Shown here piece by piece: positions 2,264 to 30,260 of a stretch of DNA of 64,000 nt (position 1 is its first letter; each line of letters begins with the position of its first letter). This stretch comes from Pagrus major (Eukaryota; Chordata; Actinopteri; Spariformes; Sparidae). The stretch spans positions 25,115,749 to 25,179,748 of the forward strand of contig NC_133237.1 of NCBI RefSeq assembly GCF_040436345.1. The letters run 5' to 3'. The translations under genes and the position numbers were made by a program. The notes beneath the pieces are model-generated. The model saw nothing but the letters and a program-made list of their open reading frames with translations, was not told the origin of the DNA and did not search any database.

Positions 2264-2273
2264 TTTCTCTTTT
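2264..2273 (-). promoter_or_regulatory. ISRE-like element upstream of APOL copy A (imperfect)
   Basis: On the minus strand this reads AAAAGAGAAA, one mismatch from the interferon-response core GAAANNGAAA. It lies about 65 bp before the donor of the first non-coding exon of copy A, a place comparable to the perfect match in copy B. Weak on its own; supported only by position. Confidence 0.35.
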
Positions 2274-2280
2274 AACTACG

Positions 2281-3087
2281 CAGGTAATACAAGAAGAATC
2301 CAATAAGGAAGACTGCTGTGTGCAGTGCGCACTCACGGTAAGCTCTGGTTTCACACATTTGACTCACAGGCATTAAGTTATATGTTTAAATACAGTTTTC
2401 TTCTTTATGACAAACAGCATTCTGCCTTACTATCTTATTAGTTAGTGTTACAGGATGAAAAATGTTGAATCTTGACTTATTTTCCTTTTGCCACCACAGC
2501 TATCAGCCTACAATAGAGCCACAAGGAGTTGTAGACAGTGTGCCAAGTGGAGACAAACAGCTAAGGTAAAGTTATGTTGTTGTTTTTTACTAGTATTTAT
2601 TTATTTATTTTTATTAATAATGTGTTACATTTACAGGCCCTACTTTAAACTAAAGAACTAGAAGCTCTGACATTGGAAAAGAAAGATGAGAAATGAATCC
2701 ATAATATATAGACTTACATCATCTCTCCTATCTGTTTTATCTGAGTGTTTCCCTGAACTGGCAATTTATCATAACAGGACAGGACCAAGTCAGGGGAAAC
2801 ATAAAAAATACTGGAAACTCAAAAACTCTATAACGTATTTAAAATTCTGCCACAGCTTGGGTGTGGTTCATATGTAAGAGATAAACAAAAACAATGTATG
2901 TGCACGTTGAAGTTCTCCACAAAAGGTTGCTCACTTAGTGCTACAAACAGACATCTGTGTTTAAAGTCTGAAAACATTTTAAAATCTTGACCTTTTTTCT
3001 TTTTTTCCTCCGCAGCTAATAACAAGGAAACCATCAAGGGGATGTAGACAGCGTACCAAGTGAAGACGAACAGATGTCGGGGAAAAG
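2281..3087 (+). other. 5' non-coding exons U1, U2 and U3 of APOL copy A
   Basis: Three exons are inferred from splice sites shared with copies B and C. U1 ends at 2337 (donor GTAAGC); its start is not defined. U2 is 2500-2565, between CACCACAG and GTAAAG. U3 is 3016-3087, between CCGCAG and GTAAGG, and carries the start codon at 3074. U2 and U3 resemble each other along much of their length (shared core GTAGACAG.GT.CCAAGTG.AGAC.AACAG), which suggests one arose from the other by exon duplication. Confidence 0.6.
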
Positions 3088-5054
3088 GTAAGGATTATTT
3101 ATGTTGTTGCTTTTCAGACTGAAGAGTTTATTCACAGCAAAGCCTAAAGTATGAGCACGGCCAAATAAGATTAAGTTATGTCCAGTGAAAGTTCAAATGC
3201 TTTCAGGCTATTTATTTTCAACAACAAAGATCATATTGTATTACAAAGCACATGCATGCAGCTGTCTGTGTGAAGGTACACCTAGGCACAACACTTAAAC
3301 CATTTCCTGGAAACAAGGGTTGTTAAAGATTATTACCTTATGAAAGCCTTCTCATAACCTACCAACAGTCTTTTCACTGTGCTTGATAATTGACACATAA
3401 AACTGATGGTACAGTAATGATGAGTGGACAAAGGGCAAGGTAGGTTACAGATGTCATTTTTTAGATTTGTTTTGCAAAAGAATGTGAAAACTAAAGTGAA
3501 GCAAGAATCATTTTGGAGGTTGCAGTTTGTGGTGCTGTTGAATAAACAAGAGAGAGAGAGATGTTCATCTCCAAAGCAAAAACATTTTGACCTTCATGAA
3601 GGACAAATTTATTGAAGAACTGTTGTAATGCATTAGTTTTAGCAAGGTGTATCCAATGAACCAATGAACTGACCCAGGGTCTGGGAGGAGATCCCCCAGG
3701 ACAGCACCCGCCGACTCATCAGGAGCTTCCCCAGGTGTTGTCAGGAGTGCAAACAGGCACACGGGGGCAATACACACTACTGACTCACATTATGAGTTGC
3801 TGTGATAAAATTCCTACACGTTGGATCAGCCTGTGATTTCAATCCCCCCGCAATATATATATACATATATATATATATATAAATAAAAGATCAATCTACA
3901 GACAGTGTTGTGTTTTCTTACAGAGAACAACTACAGGAGGCCTTGTACCGCTACACCACAGATACCCTCACTTACATTGACACAGTTAGAGGATTCTGTC
4001 AGAGGATCTCCTCATGGATGAATGCAAGGAATACAGAGTTGATCCACATGAGGGATATCAAAGACAGAGCTGACAAAGCTGACCTGAGCTTTAGTCATGT
4101 TACCCAGTCAGAGAGCAAAGGTAAGGCTCTGGGGGAATATATTAAGAACAAGGTAACGTCTGCAGACAGCAGGCGTGCAGAGCTGCAGAAAGAGCTGGCT
4201 GCTGTGTTGAAGTCCACTCTGGGAGGTCTGAAGAAGCTCGACCACTTCCTGGAGGCAGTGGAGAAGCTGGCGGTCACCTCACTTCATGTGTCCATGGAGG
4301 AGAACCAGGTGTTACACCTGCCCAAAGGGATCAGCCTTGAACAAGTTCAGGTTGTCATCTCTGCTGCACGACTAATCTGCCCTCTCCTCCTCGAGTTTAA
4401 AAGAGATGCAAGTGTCTTCTTCCTCCCCAAACTAGAGAATGTGGAAGTGCTGTCATACCAGCTGGACAAATACATAAAGACCACACAGATAATCTGTGAG
4501 AAACTAGAGAAAAGGTATCTCTTATTAGTATTTTCATTCGTACACCATGTTCTTCAGCTTTTAAATATGAATCAGAAACAATAATTACTTAAAAACAGAA
4601 ACACCAGGGAATTTATTAATGAAAAAATATATATATTTAAAATTATTTACATAGAAAATGCCAACGTGCTTTACATACAAGATATTATAATCGGCTGTTT
4701 CTATTTTAGTCAGCATCTCCTGATAATGACAACAACAACTCTGGCAGACCTCGGTGTAAATTTGTCTGAAGATGACGCACAAAGAATTATTCGTCACATT
4801 AATCAGCAAGCTGAACTGGGGTAAGTATTTCCTCTGTAAGGTTTGTTTGGGGCCAAACTCATACAAGATACTAAAATCAATTGTTCCCTTTTCAGACAAC
4901 TATTTCAGAGAGCGACCACAAAAACTGTTGTGGACCTTGATGTGGATTTGTCTGAAGATGAAATACAAAGGATGCTTCATCACATTAATCAGCTGGATGA
5001 AATCAGGTAATTATTATACAAGTATAAGTATATTTTGGGGGGGCAAAGTATTAC

Positions 5055-5128
<74 letters not shown>

Positions 5129-5139
5129 CATATACACAC

Positions 5140-5200
<61 letters not shown>

Positions 5201-7029
5201 CATATACATATATATATATATATATATATAGACCATGCAATACATTTGTAGGGAAGATTTGACTCAATTGCGGAAATATGGCGTTGATAGGAATTATTGT
5301 TTCATGGAACCAATTTGATTATCTGTCCATATGATTCATAGTCTGTGCTTAATGAGTCCACTTAATAATACTTACAATCTTGTTTCCTTGGTGAAAATCA
5401 AGGGAGTCTAACAAATACCATGTATATTAAAGATTTATTCAATGTAGGGTTTCTTCAGTCCTGACCTTGTTGTGTCAGAAAGCAGCATTAAAGTTCTGCT
5501 TTCAAAGGCGTCTTCAGCATCCCTTGTGAAAAGGGGGCTATGGTGTCATCGGCATGACACTTCTCCCTGCAGTAGAATTGTACTGTATGTATTCTGTATC
5601 TAATTGTCCCTGTAGTATTGTAAATGGATCAGCCAGACTTTGTACTTTAATATATAATTTTTGTATCTCATTATTTTATGTAAATGTATGTTATAGTTTT
5701 GTACAGTGCAGTTGTGGTTGTCATCGCCTACTGTTGACAACCTAATAAATGTTTAATGGGGAATCTGACTTTAGTGGATTATCTGCTAATCTGCACCTGA
5801 TTAATCAAAGAAACACTTAATAGGGAGTTTTGGGTTACATTTGGCTATCAATAATAATTCATGATTATCAGGGATAATTATTGATTATGATAAATAATAA
5901 GATCCAATTGACATTAGATCACCTCAGGGAACCGCCCTTGAAGAAGGGAAAAGATAGCCAATTCACCAAATCAGTGTCATAAAAGATACTAAACTGTCAG
6001 TTTGTAACTCTGATTAATGATTAACTTTGTGGATATTTTTTTTTGTCTTTCCTCTTCATCAGGATGGACCAGAACTTCAGACTGGTGTTCTTGTTCCAGG
6101 ATGTTTCATGTTCTAGCTTCATCGATGAGTTCAAAGTGCGACAACCCAGGATGCTGCAGTTTCTAACAGACCTGGAAGGGAGTGCTGTTCAGCTAGACAG
6201 GATGAACAAGGGGGCAAAGATCTCCAGTGTGGCAGGCAGCTCAATGGGAGCAGTTGGAGGTGTGCTTTCTATTGTTGGTTTGGCATTAATTCCTGTAACA
6301 GCAGGAGTGTCTCTAGGTCTGACAATAGGTGGGGTAGCGCTAGGAATAACCAGCGGAGTCAACAGTGCTGTCACCACCGCCACAGAGATTGGAGTAAACC
6401 GTACACAACAAAAGAAAGCCAGTGAAGTCTTCGAGAGCTTCATGGAGGATGTGCAGAGTGTCCAGGATTGTCTGGAGGAGGTCATTGGTCAATTACGCTC
6501 CAACTTAGAGGAAAGTGACATAGAATTGGTTGTTGGAGTAGGCAAGGTGCTCGGTAAAGTTGGTACTGTTGGAAAAGGTATTGATTCGCTTGTTGACGCT
6601 GTCTCTGCTGTGAAGTTGTTGAACAGTGAGGAGGTGATTGTAAGTGCTGGCAGAGTGGTGGCGCAGGAAGGCAAAGCATTACGCAACGTGCCCAGGGTGG
6701 CCTCGGATATCCCAGATATCGGTCAGGCAGCAGTCAAAGGGCCTCTTGCTCTTACTAAGTCAGCCAGAGCAGGTTTCATTGCACTCAATGCTCTTTTCCT
6801 TGGCTTGGATGTCTTCTTCATCTGTAAGGATAGCTACGGGCTGTCCAAAGGCAGCGAGACTGAAGTCTCAAAGTTCATCAGAGCCAGAGCTGCACTTTGG
6901 AGCTCAGAGATGGACTCATGGAAGAAGATCCAAGACTCTCTGTGCAAAGGTCAGAAGACATCAGAGGAACACCGAGCCGTCCTGGATGAGCCATTTTATC
7001 CAGAGAGGGCGATCAAGAGGAAAGTTTGA
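3074..7029 (+). CDS. apol: Apolipoprotein L-like protein, copy A (597 aa)
   Basis: Coding exons 3074-3087, 3924-4514, 4710-4820, 4896-5006 and 6063-7029 join in phase to 597 residues. Exon 1 gives only MSGK plus a split Arg. Exon 2 (residues about 5-201) is a largely helical, charged module rich in Leu and Lys, with no family I can name. Exons 3 and 4 (about 202-276), both 111 nt, are repeats of one another, sharing DL.V.LSED..QR...HINQ. Exon 5 opens with [13 protein letters not shown] and carries the APOL domain: a Gly/Ala/Val-rich hydrophobic hairpin at about 328-379, a variable linker, a second hydrophobic stretch at about 515-531 and the [12 protein letters not shown] helix. APOL proteins bind membranes and lipids and the human members form pores or act in innate defence; location in this fish is unknown. 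Poly(A) signal at 7412-7417. The start is chosen because the same 14-nt exon occurs in all copies. Confidence 0.84.
3851..3882. repeat. (TA)n tract
   Basis: Interrupted TA dinucleotide run just before exon 2 of copy A. Copy B has a much longer TA tract at the same place (13081-13335). Confidence 0.85.
5056..5230. repeat. Long (TA)n microsatellite in intron 4 of copy A
   Basis: About 175 bp of TA repeat broken by TACACACATA units. It begins about 50 bp after exon 4. The related site in copy C received a Tc1 transposon, and the orphan exon pair ends in a TA tract at the same place. Confidence 0.9.
5806..6040 (+). repeat. Interspersed repeat, copy 1 (unnamed, possibly LTR-like)
   Basis: Sequence around GGGTTACATTTGGCTATCAATAATAATT recurs at 20296-20660 in the same orientation and at 33480-33995 and 34112-34262 inverted. 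It continues through GAAGAAGGGAAAAGATAGCC and a GATTAATGATTAACTT end. It may be part of a solo long terminal repeat or of a short DNA element. No coding part of a parent element lies nearby, so the family is left open. Confidence 0.5.
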
Positions 7030-8100
7030 TCAGCATCAAACAACACTCAAGTCTATCTTTGCTGGATCAAGATTACAAAAAAAAAGTTTGTGCAGCGCAG
7101 TAGTGCTCAGTGGGAGTCCTGTATTTGTGGCAACACTCACAATGTGCCTTTTTGCTAATCATGAAACAGTGTTTAGATCTAGTTACATAAATCCCAGATC
7201 ATCCTCAATCATTCAAGCGTATATCTTTTGAAAAAAAACTTTAATAGCTTTGATTCTTATGAAGTAAACAATTTCACTGTCATTTTTTAAATGATTATAT
7301 GGCCAGCATGTCTGTTTATATAATGTAACTTTTGCCGCAATTAAGATTACTTCAGTATGTGCACATGTCATTAAGTCATAAATGCTTTAACTGATTAACA
7401 TTGTACGTGAAAATAAATATTAATATGTTTGCTGTTTATCTTAGAGGTGCCATTTGTAGCCACTTGCCGTAAATAATTTGATTACTGATCTGAAGATATA
7501 CAAGCCCACATTGCTTTCATCATCAAACACTGAAGTCAATTCATACCAGCAATTGGGTTGAATGTTCATTTTTTGTTTTACATAACTATAAATTATATCT
7601 TTGAAATGTTCTATTGTCGCAGTGCTTTAAATTTATAATGTAATCTTGCCTCCTTGTCTGTACCACCCATTTAAACATGTACCTTACTCTCTTTTGTATC
7701 GCTGTGTAGATGAAAAAGATGTATCAACGTAATTAAATCAAAATGAATTTTAACTCTGAGCACACATTAGCAATTAATGTAATAAACAGACTTCTAAAGT
7801 AACAACAAAATGTCTTGCGTTTGTGATTCTGTTTTGTTTTAAGGCCTCTATCTTTAGATGAGGAGCTTCATACATTAAGAGGATAATAGTGACCTTCATA
7901 CACGATCGTGAAATGGTGCTGACCTCATTCCTGAATACCGGAGAAGAATATGTAGTATCCAATCAACCACGATCGAGCTTTATTGTCATTATACAACACA
8001 GGATTGCACTATGAAATGCAGTCATAGTCCTCTATGCAAAGGGAAATGGTGTAAATTATTTCTGTCCTGCTCCATGGGATTATTATCTTAAAGTATTCAG
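7030..8100. other. 3' UTR of copy A and following spacer
   Basis: The 3' UTR of copy A runs to the poly(A) signal at 7412-7417. Beyond it, 7970-8060 contains TTTATTGTCATTATACAACACAGGATT-type sequence, the kind found at the tails of fish retroposons. No gene is seen. Confidence 0.45.
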
Positions 8101-8107
8101 ACAGGGG

Positions 8108-8690
8108 AAAAGAGATCCAAACAAGAACTTCTGGTCAATCTTTGGTTATTCTGAGAGTTTGTGTAGCCATCAACAAGCACTAATGTTGGCAGCTAAAAGT
8201 ATACAGTGCCTATAAAAAGTATTCACCCCCTTGGATGTTTTCCTTTTTTATTGCTTTTATATGATGTTTTTTTATATTTATATTTATGAGGATTTTTTCT
8301 TTTGAGATCTCACTTTTAACCATTAGGGGGCTCCAGAGACTGGATCAGCTTGAACACTGCAGTCCTGACCCAATATTTCCTGTGATGGCAAACATTTCCT
8401 GAAAAAGGCTGTTAAAGTCCCTGACACTCATGCTTTTAGTTTAGGAGTTCTGGTTTTAATGATAGAAATGATAAAGGCAGATAACAGAGGTAAATAAATC
8501 TGGGGAGTGAAGTCTGTAACTTAGTTTTCAAGAGCTTATTTTTAGTACAAAGCTGATACCTTTCTTTTTGTGATAGAGCTTTTAGCTGGCAGACACATAC
8601 GCAGACACATAGTCACACACCGTATTTACAGTAAACTAACAATGATGCTAAGATTAGATTAACAGCCTTTCATACTACCACGACTAAATT
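8108..8690. repeat. Segmental duplicate block X (partner 20655-21225)
   Basis: Nearly the same text, from GATCCAAACAAGAACTTCTGG through AACAGCC, recurs at 20655-21225, upstream of copies B and C respectively. Inside, at about 8203-8245, CAGTGCCTATAAAAAGTATTCACCCCC resembles the end of a fish Tc1/mariner-type or similar DNA transposon; no second end is visible. Confidence 0.7.
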
Positions 8691-9790
8691 GTAGGTTGAT
8701 GACAGGTAATGAGTTCTGTAGCTGCCAAGATTTGCATTCCCTGTTGTGTCCAGCCAGGAAGGCTGGAAGTCACATTTATGAAATGCCCAAAACATGCGCT
8801 GGCAACATGATATGACTTTAAAGTGTCTCTAGAGAAATATAATAGAAGGGAAGCATAATGGGATGCATTGTTTGCCATGGCTAATTTTGGAGTTTAGGGG
8901 TTTAAAACATTGATGACTCAAAATGTTGAGAAACTAGACTTCAGATCACCTACAGTTATTGATGAACTCAACAAAGAAGATTATATTGTATTGTAGGGAC
9001 ATGCATGCAGCTGTCTGTGTGAAGGCAGGCCTCGACACAACACTTAAACCAGAAACCACTTCCTTAAACAATGGTGGTAAAAGATTATTACCTTATAAAG
9101 CCTTCTTATGATCTACCAAGAGTCTTTCCACTGTCCTTGAAAACTTGACACATAAAACTGATGGTACAGTAATGATGGGTGGACAAAGGGCAAGGTAGGT
9201 TGTGGTGCTGTTGAACAGACAAAACAGAGAGATGTTCATCTGCAGGGCAAAAACAGAACATTTTGACCTTCATGAAGGAAGGATTTATTGAAGACCTGTT
9301 GTAATGCATTAGTTTTAGCTAGGTGTGTCTGATAAACTGGCAACTGAGTGTATAAAGATATCATCTTTATTTTCACTGAGTTAATTACATGTAGCCATCA
9401 TGCAGCAGCTGCTATGTACTTACACTGAAATGTTTTGAGCCACTGTCCACCAACACTGTTCAACCATATTGAATGTATATTGATGTATGTCTTGTGTCTG
9501 TCCCAAATACCAACGCTTGAAGTAAATGCAAGTAGTCAACTTGTGAGACATAGACTACTCTGGTAACTGCCAATTTTCTGTCTTAAAACAACGTGCTTTC
9601 CCAATAAAGCTGATCTAGGCCAAGCTTCAGCAGCAGAGTTAAATCAAGTGGATACCTTTGAAATGTAGTCTTTTTCATGTGAGACTTTCTTAAAAAGGCT
9701 GTAACTTACTGATTTCTTAGACAGTTTAAAACTCTTATTAGCAGAAGCTACATTTTGGAAAGTACTGTTGTATGAAATGAGGAATGTGGA
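8685..9790 (+). pseudogene. Relic of intronic sequence from a lost APOL-like copy
   Basis: 8685-9335 matches 11305-11930, which lies in the intron after U3 of copy B. It also matches 23050-23395 in the same intron of copy C and, in part, 3240-3650 in copy A. 9385-9780 matches 11935-12340. This sequence is normally intronic, yet here it sits upstream of copy B's own first exon, so it looks like the remains of another gene unit whose exons are gone. Alternatively only the intron segment was duplicated. Confidence 0.5.
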
Positions 9791-9809
9791 TCTGCTCAGT
9801 CTGGGTGGT

Positions 9810-10380
9810 GGAATGTCCACACACCTTGTTAGAGCAATCGATGTGGTTTGGCTCCTGATTAGTCGGCAAAGCAGCGCAAGGCAATTTCTGCATTTCCAGC
9901 AATGGTCATTTCAGCTGTCATCATTCATTTTCTAGGTATGATTATTTTCTTTGGACCCTCTCCACTGCAATGCACTCGCTGCAATCACTATTTTATAGGT
10001 CTATAGGCATATAATATGTATTAGAGTAGATGTCTTAATGTCAACCATAACCAAACCAGTTACATAATCCCTGGTTAACATAAGGTCAGGCATTTTGTCT
10101 GAGCTTCCTTTAAGACAGTGTGACAGCCCCTGATATTGGTTGACTGTTTGTGCAGGTTGGTCATTTTAGAAAGAGCAAAAAAAGGTGTATTTTTACAGCT
10201 GTTATTCCAGGAGCAAACATCTGCTTTACAGCCGATACCTTCTCACATGAAACAATAATGCTGATACCAACAATAAATAAATGCCTTTCTTGGTCCATTC
10301 TTACTTTCATTTTTATTTTGTTTGCCTAAACACATCTAAAAGTTTCCATGCACCCTGCACTGCTTTCACTTTCATTACAG
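9810..10380. repeat. Duplicated upstream flank of copy B (partner 21556-22150)
   Basis: From GTCCACACACCTTGTTAGAGC onward this flank matches the flank of copy C at 21556-22150. The tandem unit therefore includes several hundred bases of upstream DNA as well as the gene. Confidence 0.7.
10364..10373 (-). promoter_or_regulatory. ISRE-like element upstream of APOL copy B
   Basis: On the minus strand this reads GAAAGTGAAA, an exact match to the interferon-response core GAAANNGAAA. It lies 16 bp before a TATA-like box (TATAAA, 10389-10394), which itself is about 50 bp before the donor of exon U1. Human APOL genes are known to be interferon-inducible. The aligned bases in copy C (22107-22116) are TCTCACCCGC, no longer a match. 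Confidence 0.5.
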
Positions 10381-10388
10381 TGCGGTCT

Positions 10389-10394
10389 TATAAA
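10389..10394 (+). promoter_or_regulatory. TATA-like box of APOL copy B
   Basis: TATAAA about 50 bp before the U1 donor and just after the ISRE-like site. The aligned stretch in copy C reads TATCAA. Confidence 0.4.
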
Positions 10395-10417
10395 CTGGCA
10401 GGAAGGGGAAGTAGGAG

Positions 10418-11077
10418 GAAGACTGCTGTGTGCAGTGCGCACACAGGGTAAACTCTGTTTTAACATATTTGACTCACAGGCTTGAAGTTGTATGTTTAAA
10501 TACAGTTTGCTTCTTTACTACAAAGAGCATTCTGCCTTACTATCTTATTGTAGGTTATGTAAACAGACAAAAAAAAGTGTGTTAATGTTACAGGTTCATA
10601 AACTTTGAACTTGACTTATTTTCCTTTTGCCACCACAGCTATCAGCCTACAATAAAGCCACAAGGAGTCGTAGACAGTGTGCCAAGAGGAGACAACAGCT
10701 AAGGTAAAGTTTTTTTAGTTGTTTTTTATCAATAATGTGTATAATTTACAGGCACAACTTTAAACTGTAGAACTAGAAGCTCTGACATTAGAAAGAAGGA
10801 ATGTGATATGAATCCATGATATAAACAGTCACATCATCTCTCCTATCTGTTTTATCTGAGTGTTTCCCCAATGTATCATATTAGGACAGGACCAAGTCAG
10901 GGGAAACATGAAAACACTGGAAAGTTCTCCACAAAAGGTTGCTCACTGATACAAACAGACATCTGTGTTTAAAGTCTGAAAACATTTTAAAATCTTGACC
11001 TTTTTTTCTTTTTCCACAGCTAATAACAAGGAAACCAGCAAGGAATTACGGACAGCGTACCAAGTGAAGTCAAACAG

Positions 11078-11091
<14 letters not shown>
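10418..11091 (+). other. 5' non-coding exons U1, U2 and U3 of APOL copy B
   Basis: U1 ends at 10447 (donor GTAAAC). U2 is 10639-10703 (acceptor CACCACAG, donor GTAAAG). U3 is 11030-11091 (acceptor TTCCACAG, donor GTAAAG) and holds the start codon at 11078. The U1 start is a guess from the TATA-like box. Confidence 0.55.
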
Positions 11092-16834
<5,743 letters not shown>

Positions 16835-17560
16835 AGAGCAGAGACTCAAAAAATGAAATATCCATATGATCAAGTGGATGAAAATGAAATAAAAGTCTGT
16901 GTGTATCACTGATCATCAGAATCACACGAGTCATTTAAGTCTATCTTTGAGGGATTTTTAACCAGCTGTATTTCTTATGACAAACATGATTTATTGAGTC
17001 TCTGTATATTAACTATCACATGGTCAGTATGAGTGTTGTCACTATGAAGCTTGTCTCTCAACAGATTCTTTACTGAGTAAGTGGAAATATTTTACTATAA
17101 AGCTGCAGTGTGGTGCATTTTGTAATTATTCAATATATCTTTGAATATATAAAAACATTTTCTGTCTCATAACAAATAGAACTAAGTTTGTAGATTTTCT
17201 TCATTTTCTGTATTAGACACAGAGAAGCCTGTGAATGTATATCAGTACTTGGATGGTTGTTGATTTGTTTCAAACAATGTGGAATTGTGTTTTCCAAAGC
17301 TGTAGTGTCAGTAGAGGTACCTGCAAAGTCTCATTTTCGTGATGTTTAAATTTTATTGAAATGGTATCACTATTTTCACTTCTTTGTTCAGTACAACAGT
17401 CTTTTCTTTTTCTTTTCTATTCGCTGTTGTGAGGAAAGAGCTGTATTCAATGAATGTATCTAGGTTTAAGACTGTTTGACTTACTTTATAAGATATCAAG
17501 AAGAATAAGAGTGAAATCATTTGTTGTGCCTACTTAACTTTAAATAAAGAGGATTCTTCC
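16835..17560. other. 3' UTR and flank of copy B, shared with copy C
   Basis: This region matches 28980-29700 downstream of copy C almost base for base in its first 350 nt, but not the 3' side of copy A. See the mosaic finding for copy C. Confidence 0.7.
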
Positions 17561-18838
17561 GTGTCCGTGGTCTGACAAGCCTGTCTTTGCTGGATTCCTG
17601 GGTTAGCTGTATTTCTTATGACGAATTAGATTTATCGAGTCCATATTGAAACAAACAAATGGACAGTATGTTTTTTTTTTCTTAATTTAAATGATATATC
17701 ATTTTTCAGTATGAAGTTTGTCTTAATATATACATTTAGGTTGTATTAAGATGATGCTCTGTTTCTTTTCTGCTTTATTGATTTGACACTGAGAATCGCA
17801 CATAGATAATTGTTTCATACAGTGTGTGAAGAATTTTGTTTCAGAGGCTGGACCCAGTTTTCAAAAGCTCTGGTATCAATGGAGTTATCTGCTTTACTCA
17901 TCTTTGCACTGTCTTATTTCTGTAATTTTTTAATTTTACAATGAAACTGCAACACTGTTTTCACTAACTTTACTATCTTAATTATTTAAATAGTTTCTTC
18001 TATTGGCTGTTATCCTTATGAGGAAAGAGCTGTATTCAATTAATGAATCTAAATTTGAGTTTGACTTCAGTTGTGTGATTTGTATAAAAAAATAAGAGTG
18101 AAATGATTTTTAGAGTGTATAGTTAATGTATAACTTCTGTCTCTTTTTTTATGTTTTTAGTGTGTTGTTTTTATTATGGGTTGTCTTTGAGTACCTTGAA
18201 GCACTATAAAAATAAATGTATTATTATTATTATTATTATTACTACAGTTAAAAATAGAGAAATCTCCCATGTCGTCTGAAATGAGGTCTGGTCATTAATT
18301 TAGGAATGTATCAAATAAAGAGAAGATTTTCATCACTTCTGACACAAAAGCTATGTCTACAAGTTTTAAATACACATTTTACACCAACAAACATGGATAT
18401 AAACATAAAGACTTGTTACCTGGAGTCAACTGAATGTTATCAAAAGGAAGCAAGAAGATTTAGTGATTCTGATCTCATTAAAAATATCAAAAATCCCCTC
18501 CAGACATGTTTAACACATAGAAATAGTCTAGATGGAATAATTAAGAGTAAATCAGCAAGAAATCATGAAAAACTCATAGAGATGATCCTGTCAAGTATAA
18601 ACAAATGGGAGTGTCAGTATATTGAACATACTTAAGAATGAAACATTATTAATACTTTGAAATAAAGACCAATTGAGAAATGTCAACATGTACTGTATAT
18701 ATTTTTAACCTAAACAGAAGTTGATAAACAAATTAACGGAGCCTGCTAGAAGAAATATGAGTGCTTTCATGTTTGAGTTCGAGTCACAGGTTGGTCAACT
18801 TTTGGATCAACCAGAGGAAAACAGAATGAGTGAGCGTG

Positions 18839-18890
<52 letters not shown>

Positions 18891-19735
18891 TGTGTGATAA
18901 TGCAGCTCTGCTATTGTAAATCAAATGTAATTACAGTATCTACTCATTTTATTTGTTTTCATAAAAAAAAATTATCTTTTATTTTCTAGGTTTTTTCCCT
19001 ACTTTTGCTTTTTTGTTGTACGGTTTGTCTCATTTTCTGCAGCTGCACTTGTAATATATTTTTTACAAAATGCTATGAACAAGAAAAACATGAATAATAA
19101 GCTGAAATAAAAGAAAAATCCAAAGTCCATATTGTTCATTTTTGTTGTTTATGTGAACAGAACGCTTCAAGTTTTCACATCACACTTGTAAGTTGCTTTC
19201 AAACTAGTTTTGATGTCACTAAAATTAAGCCTCTAAGTCTTAACTCAAGCCCCATTCACATTGCCTTTTCAGTGTGGGAATCATGTGTCCATATGTCCGC
19301 TTCGTCGTCTCTGTGGAAGTTACAGATGCGGAGAGGGGTTACAGTTTTCGCTGTGGCTTCGATATGCCTCTGGAGGTAGTATCAAAGCCGCAGCAGAGCG
19401 AGACAGCATCCGTGTGAATGACAAAGCCGGCAGCACAGGATAGGGGTGTGTCGGTCTGATGTTGTTCCTAGTCTGACAGCTAACAGATCCTTCACTCATT
19501 AAATAAAAGAGAGATCTCCCACACGTTGAAAAACACGGATGTCACCGTCATGATGTGTACCGTCATGCCACTTTTGGCTCCGCAGGCCCGGCATGCTGTA
19601 TGAATTGACACACTAGAGCGTTCATGGATGATTTCCTACCAGTGTCAGAGAAAGAGATAAAGTCACTTTTATGCAGTTAGCAATAAAGGTTGGTAGCTTA
19701 AGGATAGCATTTCTCTCATTACCACAGGAATGTTT
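17561..19735. other. Spacer between copy B and the orphan exon pair
   Basis: AT-rich DNA with an (ATT)n run at 18216-18242 and a GT/GCGT tract at 18835-18895. At 17560-18120 it repeats, in weaker form, motifs of the copy B 3' flank (GCTGTATTTCTTATGAC, GAGGAAAGAGCTGTATTCAAT), suggesting an older tandem copy of that flank. A 109-codon frame at 18306-18635 has no recognisable domain and is not called. Confidence 0.5.
18835..18895. repeat. (GT)n/(GCGT)n microsatellite
   Basis: GTGTGTGT changing to GCGTGCGT, about 60 bp. Confidence 0.9.
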
Positions 19736-19822
19736 CAGATATATATATTTAAAATTATTTACATAGAAAATGCCAACGTGCTTTACATACAAGATATTAT
19801 AATCGGCTGTTTTCTATTTTAG

Positions 19823-20120
19823 TCAGCGTCTCCTGATAACGACGACAACAACTCTGGTAGACCTCGGTGTAAATTTGTCTGAAGATGACGCACAAAGAAT
19901 TCTTCGTCACATTAATCAGCAAGCTGAACTGGGGTAAGTATTTCGTCTGTAAGGTTTGTTTGGGGCCAAAATCATACAAGATACTAAAATCAATTGTTCC
20001 CTTTTTCAGACAACTATTTCAGAGAGCGACCACAAAAACTGTTGTGGACCTTGATGTGGATTTGTCTGAAGATGAAATACAAAGGATGCTTCGTCACATT
20101 AATCAGCTTGATGAAATCAG
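19823..20120 (+). pseudogene. Orphan exon 3-exon 4 pair of the APOL-like gene
   Basis: Two 111-nt exons (19823-19933 and 20010-20120) with intact acceptors, donors and a 76-nt intron. They differ by one base in 222 from the same exons of copy C. No exon 2 lies upstream within the copy and no APOL exon lies downstream before the next gene. The duplicated block starts in an AT run near 19738 and ends in the TA tract at 20168. It is a partial duplicate rather than a gene, though a spliceable exon pair could in theory be used by a longer transcript from copy B. Confidence 0.75.
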
Positions 20121-20165
20121 GTAAGTATTATACAAGTATAAGTATATTTTGGGAGGGCAAAGTAT

Positions 20166-20295
<130 letters not shown>

Positions 20296-20660
20296 TAAAT
20301 TTGATGGGTTAGAAATTTGATTGATAAATCAATTCTCACCACACTGCAATTGTTTGCAAGTACAAATCAACGTCTACTCCTGTAGTAAACTAGTGGGGTT
20401 AAATGTAAAGACTTTTGGCTAAAGTCTTCAAGATGTGAATCTCAAATTTTCACACTGTCCAAATTATGCTGAAATTAATATTGAACATTTATGAATGATT
20501 GCCATCAGTACACTGCCTCACACGGGGCACCGTATGTAGTGCTTCATGCAACATTAATAGGGAATTTTGGGTTACATTTGGCTATCAATAATAATTAATG
20601 ATTATCAGGGATGATCATTAATTATGGTAAATAATGAGATCCAATTTACATTAGATCCAA
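20296..20660 (+). repeat. Interspersed repeat, copy 2 (unnamed, possibly LTR-like)
   Basis: Matches 33615-33995 in reverse orientation over about 350 bp, including CACACGGGGCACCGTATGTAG, and 5806-5920 directly at its end. Family unknown. Confidence 0.5.
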
Positions 20661-22150
20661 ACAAGAACTTCTGGTCAATCTTTGGTTATTCTGAGAGTTT
20701 GTGTAGCCATCAACAAGCAGTAATGTTGGCAGCTAAAAGTATACAGCGCCTATAAAAAGTATTCACCCCCTTGGATGTTTTCCTTTTTTATTGCTTTTAT
20801 ATGATGTTTTTTTATATTTATATTTATGAGGATTTTTTCTTTTGAGATCTCACTTTTAACCATTAGGGGGCTCCAGAGACTGGATCAGCTTGAACACTGC
20901 AGTCCTGACCCAATATTTCCTGTGATGGCAAACATTTCCTGAAAAAGGCTGTTAAAGTCCCTGACACTCATGAGACCGTGTGCTTTTAGTTTAGGAGTTC
21001 TGGTTTTAATGATAGAAAATATAATGGAAGATAACAGAGGTAACTGATTTCTTTCAGTTTCTTTCTTTCTTTTTGTGAGAGAGCTTTTAGCTGGCAAACA
21101 CAACGGCAGCACCGACACATACGCAGACACATTGCAAACAATAGTCACACACCATATTTACAGTGAACCGACAATGACGTTAAGATTAGATTAACAGCCT
21201 TTAATACTACCACGACTAAGGCAGCCTTAACAAGAACTGACCGGTGTGTTCAGTGAAGAGTTGCAGTGTCACTAGTAGAGCAGTAATTTTGCTGAAGCAG
21301 CATATTGCTGCCACAGGATCAGCTCCTCATCTCCTACCTTCAGGAAAAAATGTCCAAACTAGAACAGCACACAGAGCGTTTACCTCAACCGAGGCCTGAC
21401 AGTCCCCTTTTTTACTCTCTCATAGATACCACCCAACTAAATACAGTATTTTGCTCATGTTCATCAAGATCCATCTATTATTCCCTGAGAAATGACCTTC
21501 CGGGTGGTGAAATGGTGGATGGTGCTCACTGGCAATGGTTAGCATATTTATCACGTCCACACACCTTGTTAGAGCGATGGATGTGGTGGTTTGGCTCCTG
21601 ACTAGTCGGAAATGCAATGCAAGGCAATTTCTGCATTTCCATCAATGGTCATTTCAGCTGTCATCATTCATTATTTAGGTATGATTATTTTCTTTGGACC
21701 CTCTCCACTGCAATGCACTCGCCCCAGTCACTAATTTATAGGTCTATAGGCATATAATATGCATGAGATTAGATGTCTTATTGTCAACCATAATCAAACC
21801 AGTTACATGATCCCTGGTTTACATATGGTCAGGCATTTTGTCTGAGCTTCCTATAAGACAGTGTGACAGCCCCTGATATTGGTTGACTGTTTGTGCAGGT
21901 TGGTCATTTTAGAAAGAGCAAAAAAAGGTGTATTTTTACAGCTGTTATTCCAGGAGCAAACATCTGCTTTACAGCCGATACCTTCTCACATGAAACAATA
22001 ATGCTGATACCAACAATAAATAAATGCCTTTCTTGGTCCATTCTTACTTTCATTTTTATGTTGTTTGCCTGAACACGTCTAAAAATGTCCATGCACCCTG
22101 CACTGCTCTCACCCGCATGACAGTGTGGTCTTATCAAAACAATCCAACTG
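20655..22150. repeat. Duplicated upstream flank of copy C
   Basis: 20655-21225 matches 8108-8690 and 21556-22150 matches 9810-10380. The part between (21226-21555) has no partner that I see. It shows that copies B and C share an extended tandem unit. Confidence 0.65.
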
Positions 22151-22154
22151 GTCA

Positions 22155-22821
22155 AATAGCAGGAAATGCAGGAAGGGGAAGTAGGAGGAAGACTGCTGTG
22201 TGCAGTGCGCACTCAAGATAATCTCTGGTTTAACATATTTGACTCACAGGCTTGAAGTTGTATGTTTAAATACAGTTTGCTTATCAGCCTTCAATAGAGC
22301 CACAAGGAGTCAGAGACAGTGTGCCAAGTGGAGACAAACAGCTACGGTAAAGTTATGGTTTTTTAGTAGTATTTATGTATTTTTGATTAATAATGTGTTA
22401 AATTTACAGGCCCCACGTAAAAACTAAAGAACAAGAAGCTCTGACATTAGAAAGGAAGAATGAGAAATTAGTCCATAATATAAAGACTTACATCATCTCC
22501 CTAAACTGGCAATTTATTATAACAGGACAGGACCAACATAACAATATTGGAAACTCAAAAACTCTATAAAGTATTTAAAATTTTGCCACAGCTTGGGTGT
22601 GGTTCATATGTAAGAGATTAAAAAATAAATTATTCAATGTATGTGCACGTTGAAGTTCTCCATAAAAGGTTGGTCACTGCTACAAACAGAAATCTGTGTT
22701 TAAAGTCTGAAAACATTTTAAAATCTTGACCTTTTTTTCTTTCTCCACAGCTGATAACAAGTTAACCAGCAAGAGTTGTAGACAGCGTACCGAGTGAAGT
22801 CGAACAGATGTCGGGGAAAAG
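22155..22821 (+). other. 5' non-coding exons of APOL copy C, with U1 and U2 apparently fused
   Basis: The U1 donor present in A and B (GGTAAGC, GGTAAAC) reads AGATAATC here, and intron 1 is shortened to about 75 nt with its acceptor gone. U1 and U2 would therefore be read as one exon ending at 22346 (donor GTAAAG). U3 is 22751-22821 with the start codon at 22808. Confidence 0.55.
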
Positions 22822-25800
22822 GTACAGAATATTTATGTTGCTGCTTTCCAGACTAAAGAGTTCATTCACAGCAAAGCCTAAAATATGAGCAAATAAGATA
22901 AAGTTATGTCCAGTGAAAGATCTAATGCTTTAAGGGTGTAAAGATTTATTTTCTGTGTATTTGAAATCTACTTTAACTGAGGTTAATTCTAAAACAGATA
23001 TCTACCTATGAATACACATGATTTAAAAGAAGCTAATAAAAAGCTAAATTGTAGGCTGATGACAGGTAATGAGTTCTGTAGCTGCCAAGATTTGCGTCCC
23101 CTGTTATTTCAGCCAGGAAGGCTGGAAGTCACATTTATGAAATGCCCAAAACATGTGCTGGCAACATGATTTGACTTTAAAGTGTCTCTAGAGAAATATA
23201 ATAGAAGGGAAGCATAATTGGATGCATTGTTTGCCGTGGCTAATTTTGGAGTTTAAGAGAAAGAGAAACATTGATGACTGAAAATGTTCAGAAACTACAC
23301 TTCAGATCACTTAGAGTTATTGATGAACTCAACAAAGAAGATTATATTGTATTGTCAGGACATGCATGCAGCTGTCTGTCTGCAGGCAGACATAGGCACA
23401 GCACCACACACACCCCTCCCCTCCCCTCCTGCGCTGCCTGCCAGAGCAGAGACAGACTGGCGAGATAGCAGAGAGGAAGAGGAGTGCTGTTTGGAGTTAT
23501 TTCACAGTTTCAGACAGAGAAACTGCTACCTGTGATGTATGCGGGAAAGCAATACTTGTATAAGCATTTAAAAGCAGCACACCCAAAAGTTAACGCTGAG
23601 CTGCAAAGCAAATGGAGGGAGGAGGAGGAGGGAGCTCCCCAAACCCGAACCAGACCCCTGGGACAGAGACAGACGTCACTGACAGAGGCCTTTCAATATA
23701 AACCTCAACAATATCCAGGTAGCAATTTCTAGAAGTGAAAGTTATTTCCAGCATTAATTAATGTTGGTTTTTTTAAAGTGTAATTGGTGGTCAGAGATGT
23801 AATTTTAGCAGAGTGATTAAACTATTATCATATATTCAGACAGTTGAAATAAATCTTAATTGTTTTACTGGAACTCAAAAATATATACTTATATTAAGAT
23901 ATATAGCCTACCTCAAACCTGAAGTATGAATATGGCAGAATATAATAACCCTTTTGTGTATCTGCTGAAGGAATATTAGTATTCCCATTTAGGCTACATG
24001 CAGATTTTCAAGTAAAAAGTATCGGTATCGGCAATACTGGCCCTGTAATTACTTGGTATCGGATCGATACCAAAATTTGCAGTATCGCCCACCCCTATTG
24101 CGGGGATGTTGCCGCTTTATCCCCCCCTTTCAGGGGGTTGCAGTGGTTACTGGAGCCAATCCCAGTTTTTCATATGGGCAGAGGCCATGGTATATCCCTG
24201 GACGAGTCGCCAGCTCATTGCAGGGCCCTTCTGATGACACAAGGTGCCAACTGCACGTCAGGAGCAATTTCGGGGTTCAGTATCTTGCTCAAGGATACTT
24301 CGGCATGTAGCTCAGTTCCGCCCAGGGGAGCCGGGGTTCCAACCAGCGACATCCGGTCACTGGTCACCTGAAAGTTATAAAAACTCACTGTGCAGAAGAT
24401 GCTCAGAGCCAAACATTTGACAGACACAGTTGAGACATTTATTGGAGCATTTGGCAGCTTCAGAGCAGATATTTCCCTTAAGAGTAGGTTCACCATCTTA
24501 CATTAAAAGGCGTGGATGATACACTATGTCAATGTTGTGCTTCTTTTCTGCTGCCCCCAAGAGGCCAAAAAAAATCTGTTATTGAAGTTCAAATTTGCAT
24601 GTAGTGGTAAAACTCCATGTGGCATTTTGAGCAGGATCACGGCTTCTGCCTACTGTTTTAAAACATTGCAAGATCAAACGTTAGTCAGATTTTTGAGTAA
24701 TTCTTCCTTCATCCAACATCTTTTCAATTGTTTTTGGATATATATATACACTTATACACTGTATATATACACTTATACACTGTATATATATGTGTGTGTG
24801 TATACATACACACATACATACATTCAAAATGAATACAATGACGATGTTTTGTTTTTTTAAAGAAAACAACTACAGGAGGCTGTGTACCGCTACACCACAG
24901 ATACCCTCACTTACATTAACACAGTGAGAGGATTCTGTCAGAGGATCTCCTCATGGATGGATGCCAGGGAGAAAGAGTTGATCCACATGAGGGACATCAA
25001 AGACAGAGCTGACAAAGCTGACCTGAGCTTTAGTCATGTTACCCAGTCAGGGAGCAAATGTAAGGCTCTGGGGGAATATATTAAGAACAAGGTAACTTCT
25101 GCAGACAGCAGGCGTGCAGAGCTGCAGAAAGAGCTGGCTGCTGTGTTGAAGTCCACTCTGGGAGGTCTGAAGAAGCTCGACCACTTCCGTGAGGCAGTGG
25201 AGAAGCTGGCAGTCACCTCATTTCATGTTTTCATGGAGGAGAACCACGTGTTACACCTGCCCAAAGGGATCAGCCTTAAACAAGTTCAGGTTGTCATCAT
25301 TGCTGCACGACAAATCTGCCCTCTCCTCCTCGAGTTTAAAAGAGATGCAAGTGTCTTCTTCCTCCCCAAACTAGAGAATGTGGAAGTGCTGTCATACCAG
25401 CTGGACATATACATAAAGACCACACGGATAATCTGTGAGAAACTGGAGAAAAGGTATCTCTTATTAGTATTTTCATTTGTACACCATGTTCTTCAGCTTT
25501 TAAATATGAATCAGAAACAATAATTACTTAAAAACAGAAACCGGAGAATTTATTAATAAAAAATATATATATTTAAAATTATTTACATAGAAAATGCCAA
25601 CGTGCTTTACATACAAGATATTATAATCGGCTGTTTTCTATTTTAGTCAGCGTCTCCTGATAACGACGACAACAACTCTGGCAGACCTCGGTGTAAATTT
25701 GTCTGAAGATGACGCACAAAGAATTCTTCGTCACATTAATCAGCAAGCTGAACTGGGGTAAGTATTTCCTCTGTAAGGTTTGTTTGGGGCCAAAATCATA

Positions 25801-28800
25801 TAAGATACTAAAATCAATTGTTCCCTTTTCAGACAACTATTTCAGAGAGCGACCACAAAAACTGTTGTGGACCTTGATGTGGATTTGTCTGAAGATGAAA
25901 TACAAAGGATGCTTCGTCACATTAATCAGCTTGATGAAATCAGGTATGTATTATACAAAAGTATTATCCATGTATATATTTGGGGGGCAAAGTATTACAT
26001 AAATATACACTCCTGAACAAAATCTTTGAAAACTGCATTTAAACTCAAACAGGCTGTTCATCAGCTCATCAAAAGTTTAATACCACAGCCTTAAAAAGTC
26101 CAAATCTGTGCTAAAATCTGGCTTTCATGTCATTTTCTGTCAGACATTCACACTGTCATGAGCCAAAAAGGCTTTCTGTCTTTGAACGTGGCAGGATTGT
26201 TGAGCTGCACAAGCAAGGCCTCTCGCAACGCACCATCACTGCCAAGGTTGGACGCAGTAAGACAGTCATTTTAAATTTCTGGAACTGACGTCCGTTTTTG
26301 TAAATTTTCCTTGCCATCCATCCCCAAACGTTCTCAATGGGATTTAGATCAGGGGAACACGCAGGATGGTCCAAAAGAGCAACGTTATTCTCCTGGAAGA
26401 AGTCCTTCATCAGGCAGGCGTTGTGAACTGCAGCGTTGTCCTGTTGGAAGACCCAGCCATCACCGCACAGATGAGGGCCCCCAGTCAAGAGGGATGCCCG
26501 CTGCAACATCTCCACATAGCCAGCCGCCGTTTGACGCCCCTGCACAACCTGAAGCTCCATTGTTCCATTGAAGGAAAAACCACCCCAGATCATGATGGAG
26601 CCTCCTCCACTGTGCCACGTAGAAAACATCTCCAGTGGGAGCTCCTTGTCATGCCAGTAACATTGGAAGCCATCAGGACCGCCCAGGTTACTTTTTTTCT
26701 CATCAGAGAATAAAACTTTCTTCCACCTTTCAATGTCCCATAATTGGTGCTCCCTTGCAAATTCCAAACGGCAAGTCTGTGGCGTGGGAGGAGACGTGGT
26801 CTTTGAAGATGTTTTTTGTTCTTTAAGCCCTTCTCTCGCAGATGCCGTCTTATAGTAATAAAAATGCATTTTATTTAAAAGGCGCCTTTCAAAGCACTCA
26901 AGGACACCACACATAACAACAACAGTACATCAAAAAATAAAATCAGGAAACCTTTTAGTGTAATTATGAAGATGCAATTACATAGTGCAATAACACAGAA
27001 TAGGCAGGAGTGTGATTGTATGATTATTGTGATACAGAGTAAGCCCTCGGAATAAGTGTGTTTTCAGGCGGGATTTAAAGGTGGAGACAGTGTCAGTGTC
27101 AAAAGTGCATATGTGCATAAATGCTTATGGTTATTGGGCTGCAGTCAGCATCAGTAAGGGCCTTAATTTGGGTCGAGGCCCGTTGGATCCTCCAGCTCAG
27201 CTAAAAAAATTTTGGGTCTACCACTTGACTTTTTTGTCCCATAAACCTCAGGATCTTTTAAGAAATTTAAAATGACTGTCTTACTGCATCCAACCTTGGC
27301 AGCGATGGTGCGTTGTGAGAGGCCTTACTACTACTCAACAATCCTGCCACGTTCAAAGACAGAAAGCCTTTCTGCCATTGCCATCAGGAGGTCATGACAG
27401 TGTGAATGTCTGACAGAAAATTACATGAAAGCCAGATTTTAGGGCAGATTTGGACTATTAATAAATTGCCTACTCTTTTTTTTCTCTTGCTCCTGTTTCT
27501 TCTTTTTGCATTTTGAAGCTCTACTTACAAACTGTTAAATATCCATCGCGCGAAATGCAAATACTTGTAATTTTCCCCTGGTCTTAAGACTTTGTTCAGG
27601 AGTGTATATACATATATAGACACACACACACACACACACACACTCACTGGCCACTACTGTCGGTCTGACTTCTACGCAGTGTTAACTCTACATCAATATG
27701 TTACAAAAGACACATGCCATACATTTGTATGCTAGATTTGACTCAATATTGCGGAAATATGGTGTTGATAGGGATTATTGTTACATGGAACCAATTTGAT
27801 TATTTGTCCATCCATATAAACTAAGCACAAAAAGTAAGGAAATTTGTGTTTGGTAGATTATTTCTTTGTTGTAACAAACAATTTGAAGAAAAAAAGACAG
27901 ATTTCCATATTTTTTAACCTTGGAGATGAAAAATATTAAAATCAGTGGTACACACACCAACTGTGTAAGTTAAAGCCATACTGATATTTACAGAGTCTTG
28001 AGGGGGCTTGCCCAGACTCATTTTCATATTCTGCAGAATAATTACATAAATTGTTGATATAAAAAGTTTTGATTAGTGGAAAAATTTTGTCTTTCCTCTT
28101 CATCAGGATGGACCAGAACTTCAGACTGGTATTCTTGTTCCAGGATGTTTCATATTCTGGCTTCATCTATGAGTTCAAAGAGCGACAACCCAGGATGCTG
28201 CAGTTTCTAACAGACCTGGAGGAGGTAGCTGTTCAGCTAGACAAGATGAACAAGGGGGCAAAGATCTCCAGTGTGGCAGGCAGCTCAGTGGGAGCAGTTG
28301 GAAGTGTCCTTTCTATTGTTGGTTTGGCATTAATTCCTGTAACAGCAGGAGTGTCTCTAGGTCTGACAATAGGTGGGCTAACGCTAGGAATAACCAGCGG
28401 AGTCAACAGTGCTGTCACCACCGCCACAGAGATTGGAGTAAACCGTACACAACAAAAGAAAGCCAGTGAAGTCTTCGAGAGCTTCATGGAGGATGTGCAG
28501 AGTGTCCAGGATTGTCTGGAGGAGGTCATGGGTCAAATATGCTTCAATTTAGAGGCAAGTGACATAGAATTGGTTGTTGGAATAGGCAAGGTGATTGTAA
28601 GTGCTGGCAGAGTGGTGGCGCAGGACAGCAAAGCATTATGCAACGTGCCCAGGGGGGCCTCGGATATCCCAGATATCGGTCAGGCAGCAGTCAAAGGGCC
28701 TCTTGCTCTTTCTAAGTCAGCCAGAGCAGGTTTCATTGCACTCAATGCTCTTTTCCTTGGCTTGGATGTCTTCTTCATCTGTAAGGATAGCTTCGGGCTG

Positions 28801-28992
28801 TCCAAAGGCAGCGAGACTGAAGTCTCACAGTTCATCAGAGCCAGAGCTGCACTTTGGAGCTCAGAGATTAACTCATGGAAGAAGATCCATGACTCCCTGT
28901 GCAAAGGTCAGAAGACATCAGACGAACACCGAGTCGTACTGGACAAGACATTTTATCCGAGGAGGCAGATAGAGAGCAGAGAAAAAAAATGA
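22808..28992 (+). CDS. apol: Apolipoprotein L-like protein, copy C (570 aa)
   Basis: Coding exons 22808-22821, 24863-25453, 25647-25757, 25833-25943 and 28107-28992 join in phase to 570 residues. Exon 2 differs from copy A at about 17 of 197 residues by eye. Exons 3 and 4 keep the paired LSED repeats. The APOL exon has the same Gly/Val hairpin as A but a linker shorter by about 27 residues ([13 protein letters not shown]), which accounts for the length difference from A. The last 60 codons and the 3' UTR instead follow copy B. Poly(A) signal 29024-29029. Intron U3-exon 2 holds a hAT remnant; intron 4 holds a Tc1 element. The upstream ISRE-like and TATA-like sites seen in B are not kept, so expression may differ, although the reading frame is whole. 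Confidence 0.83.
23404..24097 (+). mobile_element. hAT-type DNA transposon remnant with BED zinc-finger coding part
   Basis: The right end (about 24010-24097) is the GGTATCGGCAATACTGG...CAGTATCGCCCACCCCTA terminal sequence common to fish hAT elements. At 23520-23730 a short frame contains [14 protein letters not shown] after a CDVCGK-like stretch, a BED-type zinc finger, followed by an Arg/Gln-rich linker. The left terminal repeat and the catalytic domain are absent. It replaces intron sequence that copies A and B retain. Confidence 0.65.
24098..24368. repeat. Fish interspersed repeat fragment
   Basis: The GTCGCCAGCTCATTGCAGGGCCC and CTCAAGGATACTTCGGCATGTAG motifs are typical of an abundant fish SINE-like or LINE-tail repeat. 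Homology to copy B resumes at 24371. Confidence 0.5.
26008..27604 (-). mobile_element. Rearranged Tc1-like DNA transposon in intron 4 of copy C
   Basis: Ends CACTCCTGAACAAA and TTTGTTCAGGAGTG are inverted repeats, flanked on each side by TA, the Tc1 target. On the minus strand the transposase reads through HTH sequence ([11 protein letters not shown], near 27380) and then GRPK. After an insertion at about 26857-27124 it continues with [56 protein letters not shown] and [20 protein letters not shown]. The D-x-D-type catalytic core motifs are visible but the frame has stops and shifts and the C-terminus is absent. In its place, 26110-26287 is an inverted copy of the 27265-27440 end, so the HTH region occurs twice, head to head. 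Confidence 0.85.
26857..27124. repeat. Short repeat inserted within the Tc1 transposase
   Basis: About 268 bp lying between codons for SPITI and TIRRHL of the transposase. It begins with AATAAAAATGCATTTTATTT, then AAGGCGCCTTTCAAAGCACTC, a motif repeated widely in fish genomes, and ends near GTGCATAAATGCTT. Family not named. Confidence 0.55.
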
Positions 28993-30260
28993 AAAATCCA
29001 TCTGATCAAGTGGATGAAAATGAAATAAAAGTCAGTGTGTATTACTGATCATCAGAATCACACGAGTCATTTAAGTCTATCTTTGAGGGATTCTTAACCA
29101 GCTGTATTTCTTATGACAAACATGATTCATTGAGTCTCTATATTAACTATCACATGGTCAGTATGAGTGTTGTCACTATGAAGCTTGTCTCAAAACATAA
29201 TGCTTATATATCATTCAGAAACAGATTCTTTCCTGAGCAAGTGGAGATATTTTACTATAAAGCTGCAATGTGTTGCATTTTGTAATTATTCAATATATCT
29301 TTGACTATATAAAAACATTTTCAGAATTTTTAGTTTTTCTTAATTTTCTGTATTAGACACAGAGAAGCCTGTGAATGTATATTAGTACTTAGATGGTTGT
29401 TGATTTGTTTCAAACAATGTAGAATTGTGTTTTCCAAAGCTGTAGTGTCATTAGAGGTACCAGGTTTTACCTTCATCTTTGCAAAGTCTCATTTTTATAA
29501 TGTTTTATTTTTGCAATGCAACTGTATCACTGTTTTCTCTGACTTTACAACCTGAATATTTCACTTCTTCTTTTATCCTGTCGGTAGATATTCTTACAAG
29601 GAAATAGTGGTATTCATTTATGTTTAAAACCATTTGATTTCATTTATATAGTATCAAAAAGAAAAAAAAATGTACTAATCTTTACAGTCAATAAAGAGGA
29701 TTATTCCATCTCGTATAAAATGTGGTTCATCAATTTAGGAAAACAAAGTTCTTGTCAGACAAAGAGGAGATTTTTATCACATCAACACAAAAACAGCTGA
29801 TGTCTACAAGCCCGTATGTATTTTACACCATAATATGACTGATAAACATTTCCTGGAGCAAATTTTGTGTTATAAGAAAGTTAGTGATTCTTGTGAATCT
29901 TTGAACAAAAGTTTATTGTGTGGACAAAGCTAAAATAAGGTCCATCCAATAGTTATGGAGACATTTCACACAAAAAAATTATACACGAAACTCATGGTGG
30001 TACTGTGCCAATCCATCAAGTAGACACTGAGATATTTCTCTGAGGATCATGAACAAAATTTCATGCAGCTAACATGGCTCAACCTCACTCTTGTTGGCAT
30101 TGCATACCCTGCTGGCAGTATTTCAGATATAGACCTAAAAAGGAATAAGCAAACAATCATTAGCATGCACAAGTCCAGAGTCCAGCCACTGTACCTGGTG
30201 TTTATCCTCTTCTCTCATCCCATATGAGAACAATCTCCTACTTTTTTCTGTATGATTCAG
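28993..30260. other. 3' flank of copy C and spacer before the sulfotransferases
   Basis: 28993-29700 is the copy of the copy B 3' flank. 29700-30200 is AT-rich spacer without a visible exon. 30125-30267, including CCTGGTGTTTAT and ATCCCATATGAGAAC, recurs before the second sulfotransferase (34460-34600) and is part of that tandem unit. Confidence 0.6.

Follow-up and report, generated by a model that had tools for sequence, protein, structure and literature searches.

An APOL-like gene array with a predicted helical front module in the fish Pagrus major

Human APOL proteins act against parasites and bacteria, and variants of APOL1 cause kidney disease. Human APOLs are not known to carry a front part as long as the one described here, which is predicted from three tandem APOL-like genes (A, B and C) in a 64,000-nucleotide (nt) stretch of the Pagrus major genome (hereafter the window; NCBI RefSeq assembly GCF_040436345.1, contig NC_133237.1, forward strand, positions 25,115,749–25,179,748). 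The N-terminal helical domain of human APOL1 is thought to lie outside the pore and might aid membrane insertion (PMC8316464). The N-terminal domain of APOL1 and APOL2 is a small helical domain just before the membrane segment (PMC8316464), a placing akin to that of the short fish exons termed LSED, which probably sit at the start of the Pfam domain. The helical module of the fish genes exceeds that domain in length and is placed further upstream. Zebrafish apol1, also a fish APOL, is described as a single candidate orthologue that aligns to the human domains without a secretory domain, and no front module is mentioned for it in the portion of that paper used here (PMC4492502). Among the literature matches listed (titles and abstract starts), none described an extended module at the N terminus of fish APOLs, which does not show such a module to be unpublished.

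It is likely, in our judgement, that A–C and a fourth gene on the same chromosome, D, make up a divergent set of fish APOL genes, multiplied by tandem duplication, in which every gene encodes one protein with a helical front of ~200 residues, one or two LSED helices that open the APOL domain, and a membrane-active APOL body. The set resembles the human APOL family (PF05461; for example, intracellular APOL2 and APOL3) in its ApoL domain with hydrophobic helices, its tandem clustering and, presumably, its eif3d and sstr3-like neighbours. It differs in possessing the ~200-residue helical front, which human APOLs are not known to have, and in the duplication of the LSED exon in A and C. Unlike secreted APOL1, the fish proteins have no obvious signal peptide, judging from their hydrophilic start (MSGKREQLQ in gene A).

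Anatomy of the genes and joining of their parts

Gene models for A–C were derived from splice motifs and open frames in genomic sequence; the genome covered by our searches comprises 786 Mb in 25 contigs, the window being 25.116–25.180 Mb of contig C23. The genes lie in tandem on the plus strand (3.1–29.0 kb of the window) and share one order of parts: a 14-nt ATG exon, a helical exon of 197–213 codons, one or two LSED exons (35–37 codons) and an APOL-type last exon. The modelled spliced proteins are free of internal stops (A, 597 residues; B, 570; C, 570). Window coordinates are as follows.

2284–2337 and 2500–2565, plus strand: gene A, two 5′ exons that are probably untranslated (placed by splice motifs and by resemblance to their counterparts in B and C)
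3016–3087, plus strand: gene A, exon that holds the 14-nt coding start (coding 3074–3087, ATG at 3074; 3016–3073 apparently untranslated); assigned from splice motifs and phase, with the same coding start in B and C and a candidate in D
3924–4514, plus strand: gene A, helical-module exon, 591 nt (open frame, splice motifs, genome search)
4710–4820, plus strand: gene A, first LSED exon
4896–5006, plus strand: gene A, second LSED exon
6063–7029, plus strand: gene A, last exon, APOL domain (PF05461, 2.8e-30), stop TGA ending at 7029
11020–11091, plus strand: gene B, exon that holds the 14-nt coding start (coding 11078–11091, ATG at 11078)
13402–14040, plus strand: gene B, helical-module exon, 639 nt
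14144–14207, plus strand: gene B, LSED remnant, its edges without splice motifs
14460–14564, plus strand: gene B, LSED exon
15880–16834, plus strand: gene B, last exon, diverged APOL domain (PF05461, 17.2 bits, below cut-off) with a repeated VVVGEDE-type linker, stop TAG ending at 16834
19823–19933 and 20010–20120, plus strand: orphan LSED exon pair between B and C, splice motifs intact
22751–22821, plus strand: gene C, exon that holds the 14-nt coding start (coding 22808–22821, ATG at 22808)
24863–25453, plus strand: gene C, helical-module exon, 591 nt
25647–25757, plus strand: gene C, first LSED exon
25833–25943, plus strand: gene C, second LSED exon
28107–28992, plus strand: gene C, last exon, APOL domain (PF05461, 1.2e-31), stop TGA ending at 28992

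Each coding intron of A–C (75 nt to 2.3 kb) interrupts a codon after its second base. With a first coding exon of 14 nt and every later exon opening on a third codon base, all coding introns share a single phase, and exons could therefore be gained, lost or repeated with the frame intact. Stop-free stretches of 591 bp are rare in the window (10 of 1308 sampled, A–C themselves counted in); this rarity, together with the same order of parts in gene D, confirms that the gene structure read from the sequence is more than chance. Mutually similar, apparently untranslated upstream exons are present in all three genes, clearest in A, with the edges of the first one less clear in B and C. An earlier note on this DNA had begun the array at 2264; the coding genes stand, but that start takes in the apparently untranslated 5′ exons of A. 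The last intron of gene C holds a transposase-like frame (26156–26929, minus strand; PF13358 DDE_3, 4.6e-14).

Gene D (C23:17287642–17289912, minus strand) lies 7.8 Mb from the array and repeats the order module, LSED, APOL exon, with introns of ~86 nt (module to LSED) and ~420 nt (before the APOL exon); one candidate for a 14-nt ATG exon is found ~1.15 kb upstream. Searching the genome with the gene A module returned four genes, A–D, at E ≤ 0.001, each beside an APOL-type exon, and the gene D module at E ≤ 10 recovered A–D (B in two pieces) and nothing else; per the tool, such counts are lower bounds for repeats and large families. A PF05461 search gave 17 matches, merged into 14 loci, of which A, C and D are three. 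Over at least 7 kb upstream of each of the 11 others, the best module profile match had E 2.9 and the best LSED profile match E 0.31. At the level of sequence similarity, these searches show the helical module to be restricted to the four genes within this genome.

That each gene joins the front module to APOL, as the earlier note proposed, is supported by the single intron phase, the same order in D, the occurrence of the module only beside APOL-type last exons, and near-equal synonymous divergence (dS) between A and D in the two modules (0.406 and 0.400), from which the two were probably duplicated together. We infer that the helical, LSED and APOL exons are spliced into one mRNA per gene. 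Were the helical exon instead a separate gene interleaved with APOL genes, the proteins would not be fused. Such an arrangement could draw on the evidence base being genomic sequence only, and on each of the four last exons having methionine as its first full codon, so that translation might begin internally and yield a short protein of APOL alone. It sits badly with the uniform phase and open frames, the short introns of gene D, the near-equal dS and the failure of genome searches to find any module away from an APOL-type exon, and we regard it as very improbable.

The helical front module and the LSED exons

Against Pfam and NCBIfam, the helical exon has no match that passes a shown cut-off, and against PDB sequences none below E 0.25; the front module thus matches none of the families searched, in line with the earlier note. 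The structure prediction proposed there, an AlphaFold model built from a three-row alignment, has five helices (residues 2–56, 66–100, 103–124, 138–160 and 167–195), but its confidence (predicted local distance difference test, pLDDT, 52; predicted template modelling score, pTM, 0.44) is too low for naming a fold, and structural matches were therefore not used for that end. The module could be a diverged member of a known helical-bundle family beyond the reach of sequence searches, in which case no new domain was added to APOL; we find this quite plausible, only just short of an even call. A ClyA-type alpha pore-former is one candidate among such bundles.

A and C carry two LSED exons each, B a single one besides the remnant, and D one of 40 codons. 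The orphan pair between B and C, which has neither module nor APOL exon, was absent from the earlier list of features. LSED had been taken as a module of its own within a three-part layout; the exons are there, but LSED looks more like the beginning of the ApoL domain, with contrary results considered below. We compared where the Pfam ApoL profile match starts with and without LSED before the APOL exon, using shuffled LSEDs as control (n = 10). For the start of the APOL exon alone, the match opens at position 51 (A) or 52 (D). Placing a native LSED in front (A second, A first or D) moved the opening to 14–16 in all three short constructs, with a gain of 0.5–1.7 bits. Shuffled LSEDs before the A exon left it at 49–51 in 10/10 cases, none extending the match, and scored 53.0–54.1 bits there against 54.7 and 55.9 with the two native A LSEDs. 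In the full-length A and C proteins, the match opens within the second LSED. A PDB sequence search with a profile of LSED plus the APOL start matched no chain of the human APOL1/2 N-terminal domain. The profile alignments argue, with moderate force, that LSED probably encodes the helix with which the APOL domain opens (profile ~14–50), present twice in A and C, and is not a module of its own; if so, that helix is here a separate, duplicated exon.

Selection and divergence of the copies

The ratio of non-synonymous to synonymous differences (pN/pS) between A and D is 0.47 for the module (p = 5.6e-5) and 0.45 for APOL (p = 2.6e-8), with similar values between C and D (0.50, p = 1.4e-4; 0.45, p = 3.0e-8). 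These codon comparisons show the front module and the APOL exon alike to be under purifying selection in the A–D and C–D pairs. The B–D signal is weaker (module 0.70, p = 0.05; APOL 0.74, p = 0.003). Within the array, module ratios are 0.87 (A–B), 0.61 (A–C) and 0.94 (B–C), and APOL ratios 0.86, 1.22 and 0.99, respectively. Low ratios against D, with none off 1 within the array, indicate that the fusion was kept on a longer time scale and that the recent copies A–C are relaxed or fast-changing; the pN/pS data are compatible with both.

PF05461 scores exceed the curated Pfam cut-off of 25.9 bits in A (106.2 bits), C (110.7 bits) and D (123.8 bits), and Kyte–Doolittle hydropathy peaks at 2.06–2.23 in two places in each of them (residues 64 and 236 of the gene A APOL exon); judged by hydropathy, these segments could cross a membrane. 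Of the three APOL-like genes named by the earlier note, A and C match the family but B does not reach the cut-off. At the protein level, the last exon of B shares 48% identity with A, and B is best taken, from its sequence, as a diverged relative that no longer scores as APOL. Near the 3′ end of this exon, a 90-nt block is 92–94% identical to A and C, the corresponding identity of D to A and C being 72–74%; the high identity of the B block suggests conversion. The claim that the copies vary by exon gain or loss, linker repeats and conversion holds up: exon number and linker repeats differ, and conversion is probable. The VVVGEDE-type repeats of B (16300–16480) give 23.6 bits, against a cut-off of 30, with the PF21300 model of an ice-binding beta-roll, a weak match that arises probably only because both are short repeats.

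A tree of A–D with 10 of the 11 other ApoL-matching loci (C1 left out; three rows were partial frames) placed A–D in one group with support 82/96. Three closely related weak ApoL matches at C23:27.88 and 28.01–28.02 Mb (L019–L021) have a very long branch.

Several results weigh against a single, maintained set of fused APOL genes whose domain opens with LSED. The A–D grouping falls below the tool's 95/80 mark for firm support, and the tree carries a long-branch warning. The gene B last exon lies under the ApoL cut-off (17.2 bits, E 0.0036), as does full-length B (16.9 bits). The score gain from LSED in short constructs is small, and full-length proteins score slightly lower than the last open reading frame alone (A, 105.4 versus 106.2 bits; C, 109.3 versus 110.7 bits). 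A longer gene D construct matched from 48, the B match did not extend into LSED, and no ApoL match at E ≤ 10 came from LSED by itself or followed by 41 residues of the APOL exon. A motif scan showed no enrichment of interferon-type motifs. Finally, none of the six within-array pN/pS tests differs from 1 (range 0.61–1.22), which also fits relaxed constraint. Read with the LSED remnant in B, the orphan LSED pair and the low score of B, these six ratios would suit an array that is a decaying side branch, with D as the working gene and A–C drifting under little constraint. Yet frames stay open across 570–597 codons in all three genes, B included, A and C keep strong ApoL matches, and the A–D and C–D ratios are 0.45–0.50; we consider decay unlikely.

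Neighbourhood and possible role

Downstream of the array lie a sulfotransferase exon, eif3d exons within 38.4–42.8 kb and an sstr3-like receptor gene (53.3–54.7 kb, by best PDB match). The sulfotransferase exon (PF00685, 35863–36156) is in a tandemly duplicated region, with repeated stretches at 30–37 kb. Human APOL, EIF3D and SSTR3 lie on 22q12-13, and the downstream genes appear consistent with the human APOL region.

The window opens (2 to ~290) within a frame resembling adjacent immunoglobulin constant exons (76% over 42 residues). That frame closes a ~35-kb plus-strand cluster of variable (V) and constant (C) exons (C23:25.080–25.116 Mb; L034, L033, L024, L023), and the APOL array begins 2 kb past it. 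A similar V/C cluster on the minus strand (C23:17.265–17.284 Mb; L029, L030) lies ~3.7 kb past the 3′ end of gene D, all but ~1 kb of the gap being covered. Scanned with Pfam, eight frames of the two clusters gave V-set in five and C1-set in three. One C exon matched antibody chains both heavy and light, and so the label 'light chain' rests on the V–C layout and is not certain. This immunoglobulin neighbourhood is a circumstantial pointer to a defence role of the array.

The hydrophilic start suggests that the proteins should remain in the cell. There, the hydrophobic APOL helices would insert into a membrane, and the front module would hold or oligomerise the protein, most likely through assembly, partner binding or restraint, thereby positioning the membrane domain. 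The extra bundle and second LSED helix could alter the insertion step. The array itself probably evolves rapidly, duplicating, gaining or losing exons and undergoing conversion, which is common among immune genes. For the front module one may conjecture a role as sensor or in assembly, and for the genes, by analogy with the human family and from the neighbourhood, one in defence. A fuller proposal is tentative and, as a whole, rather doubtful: the front would be a new protein domain, known only fused to APOL in this fish, that detects a target or brings it together and pushes the APOL body into membranes. It would have evolved in a rapidly changing array next to the light-chain-like immunoglobulin clusters, and recombination or enhancers of these clusters may have influenced its copy number or expression.

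How membrane insertion of human APOLs is controlled is unsettled, and a branch of the family in fish that carries an extra helical module kept by selection would be a natural experiment on that control. The APOL family would thus gain a front part whose purpose can be tested by experiment.
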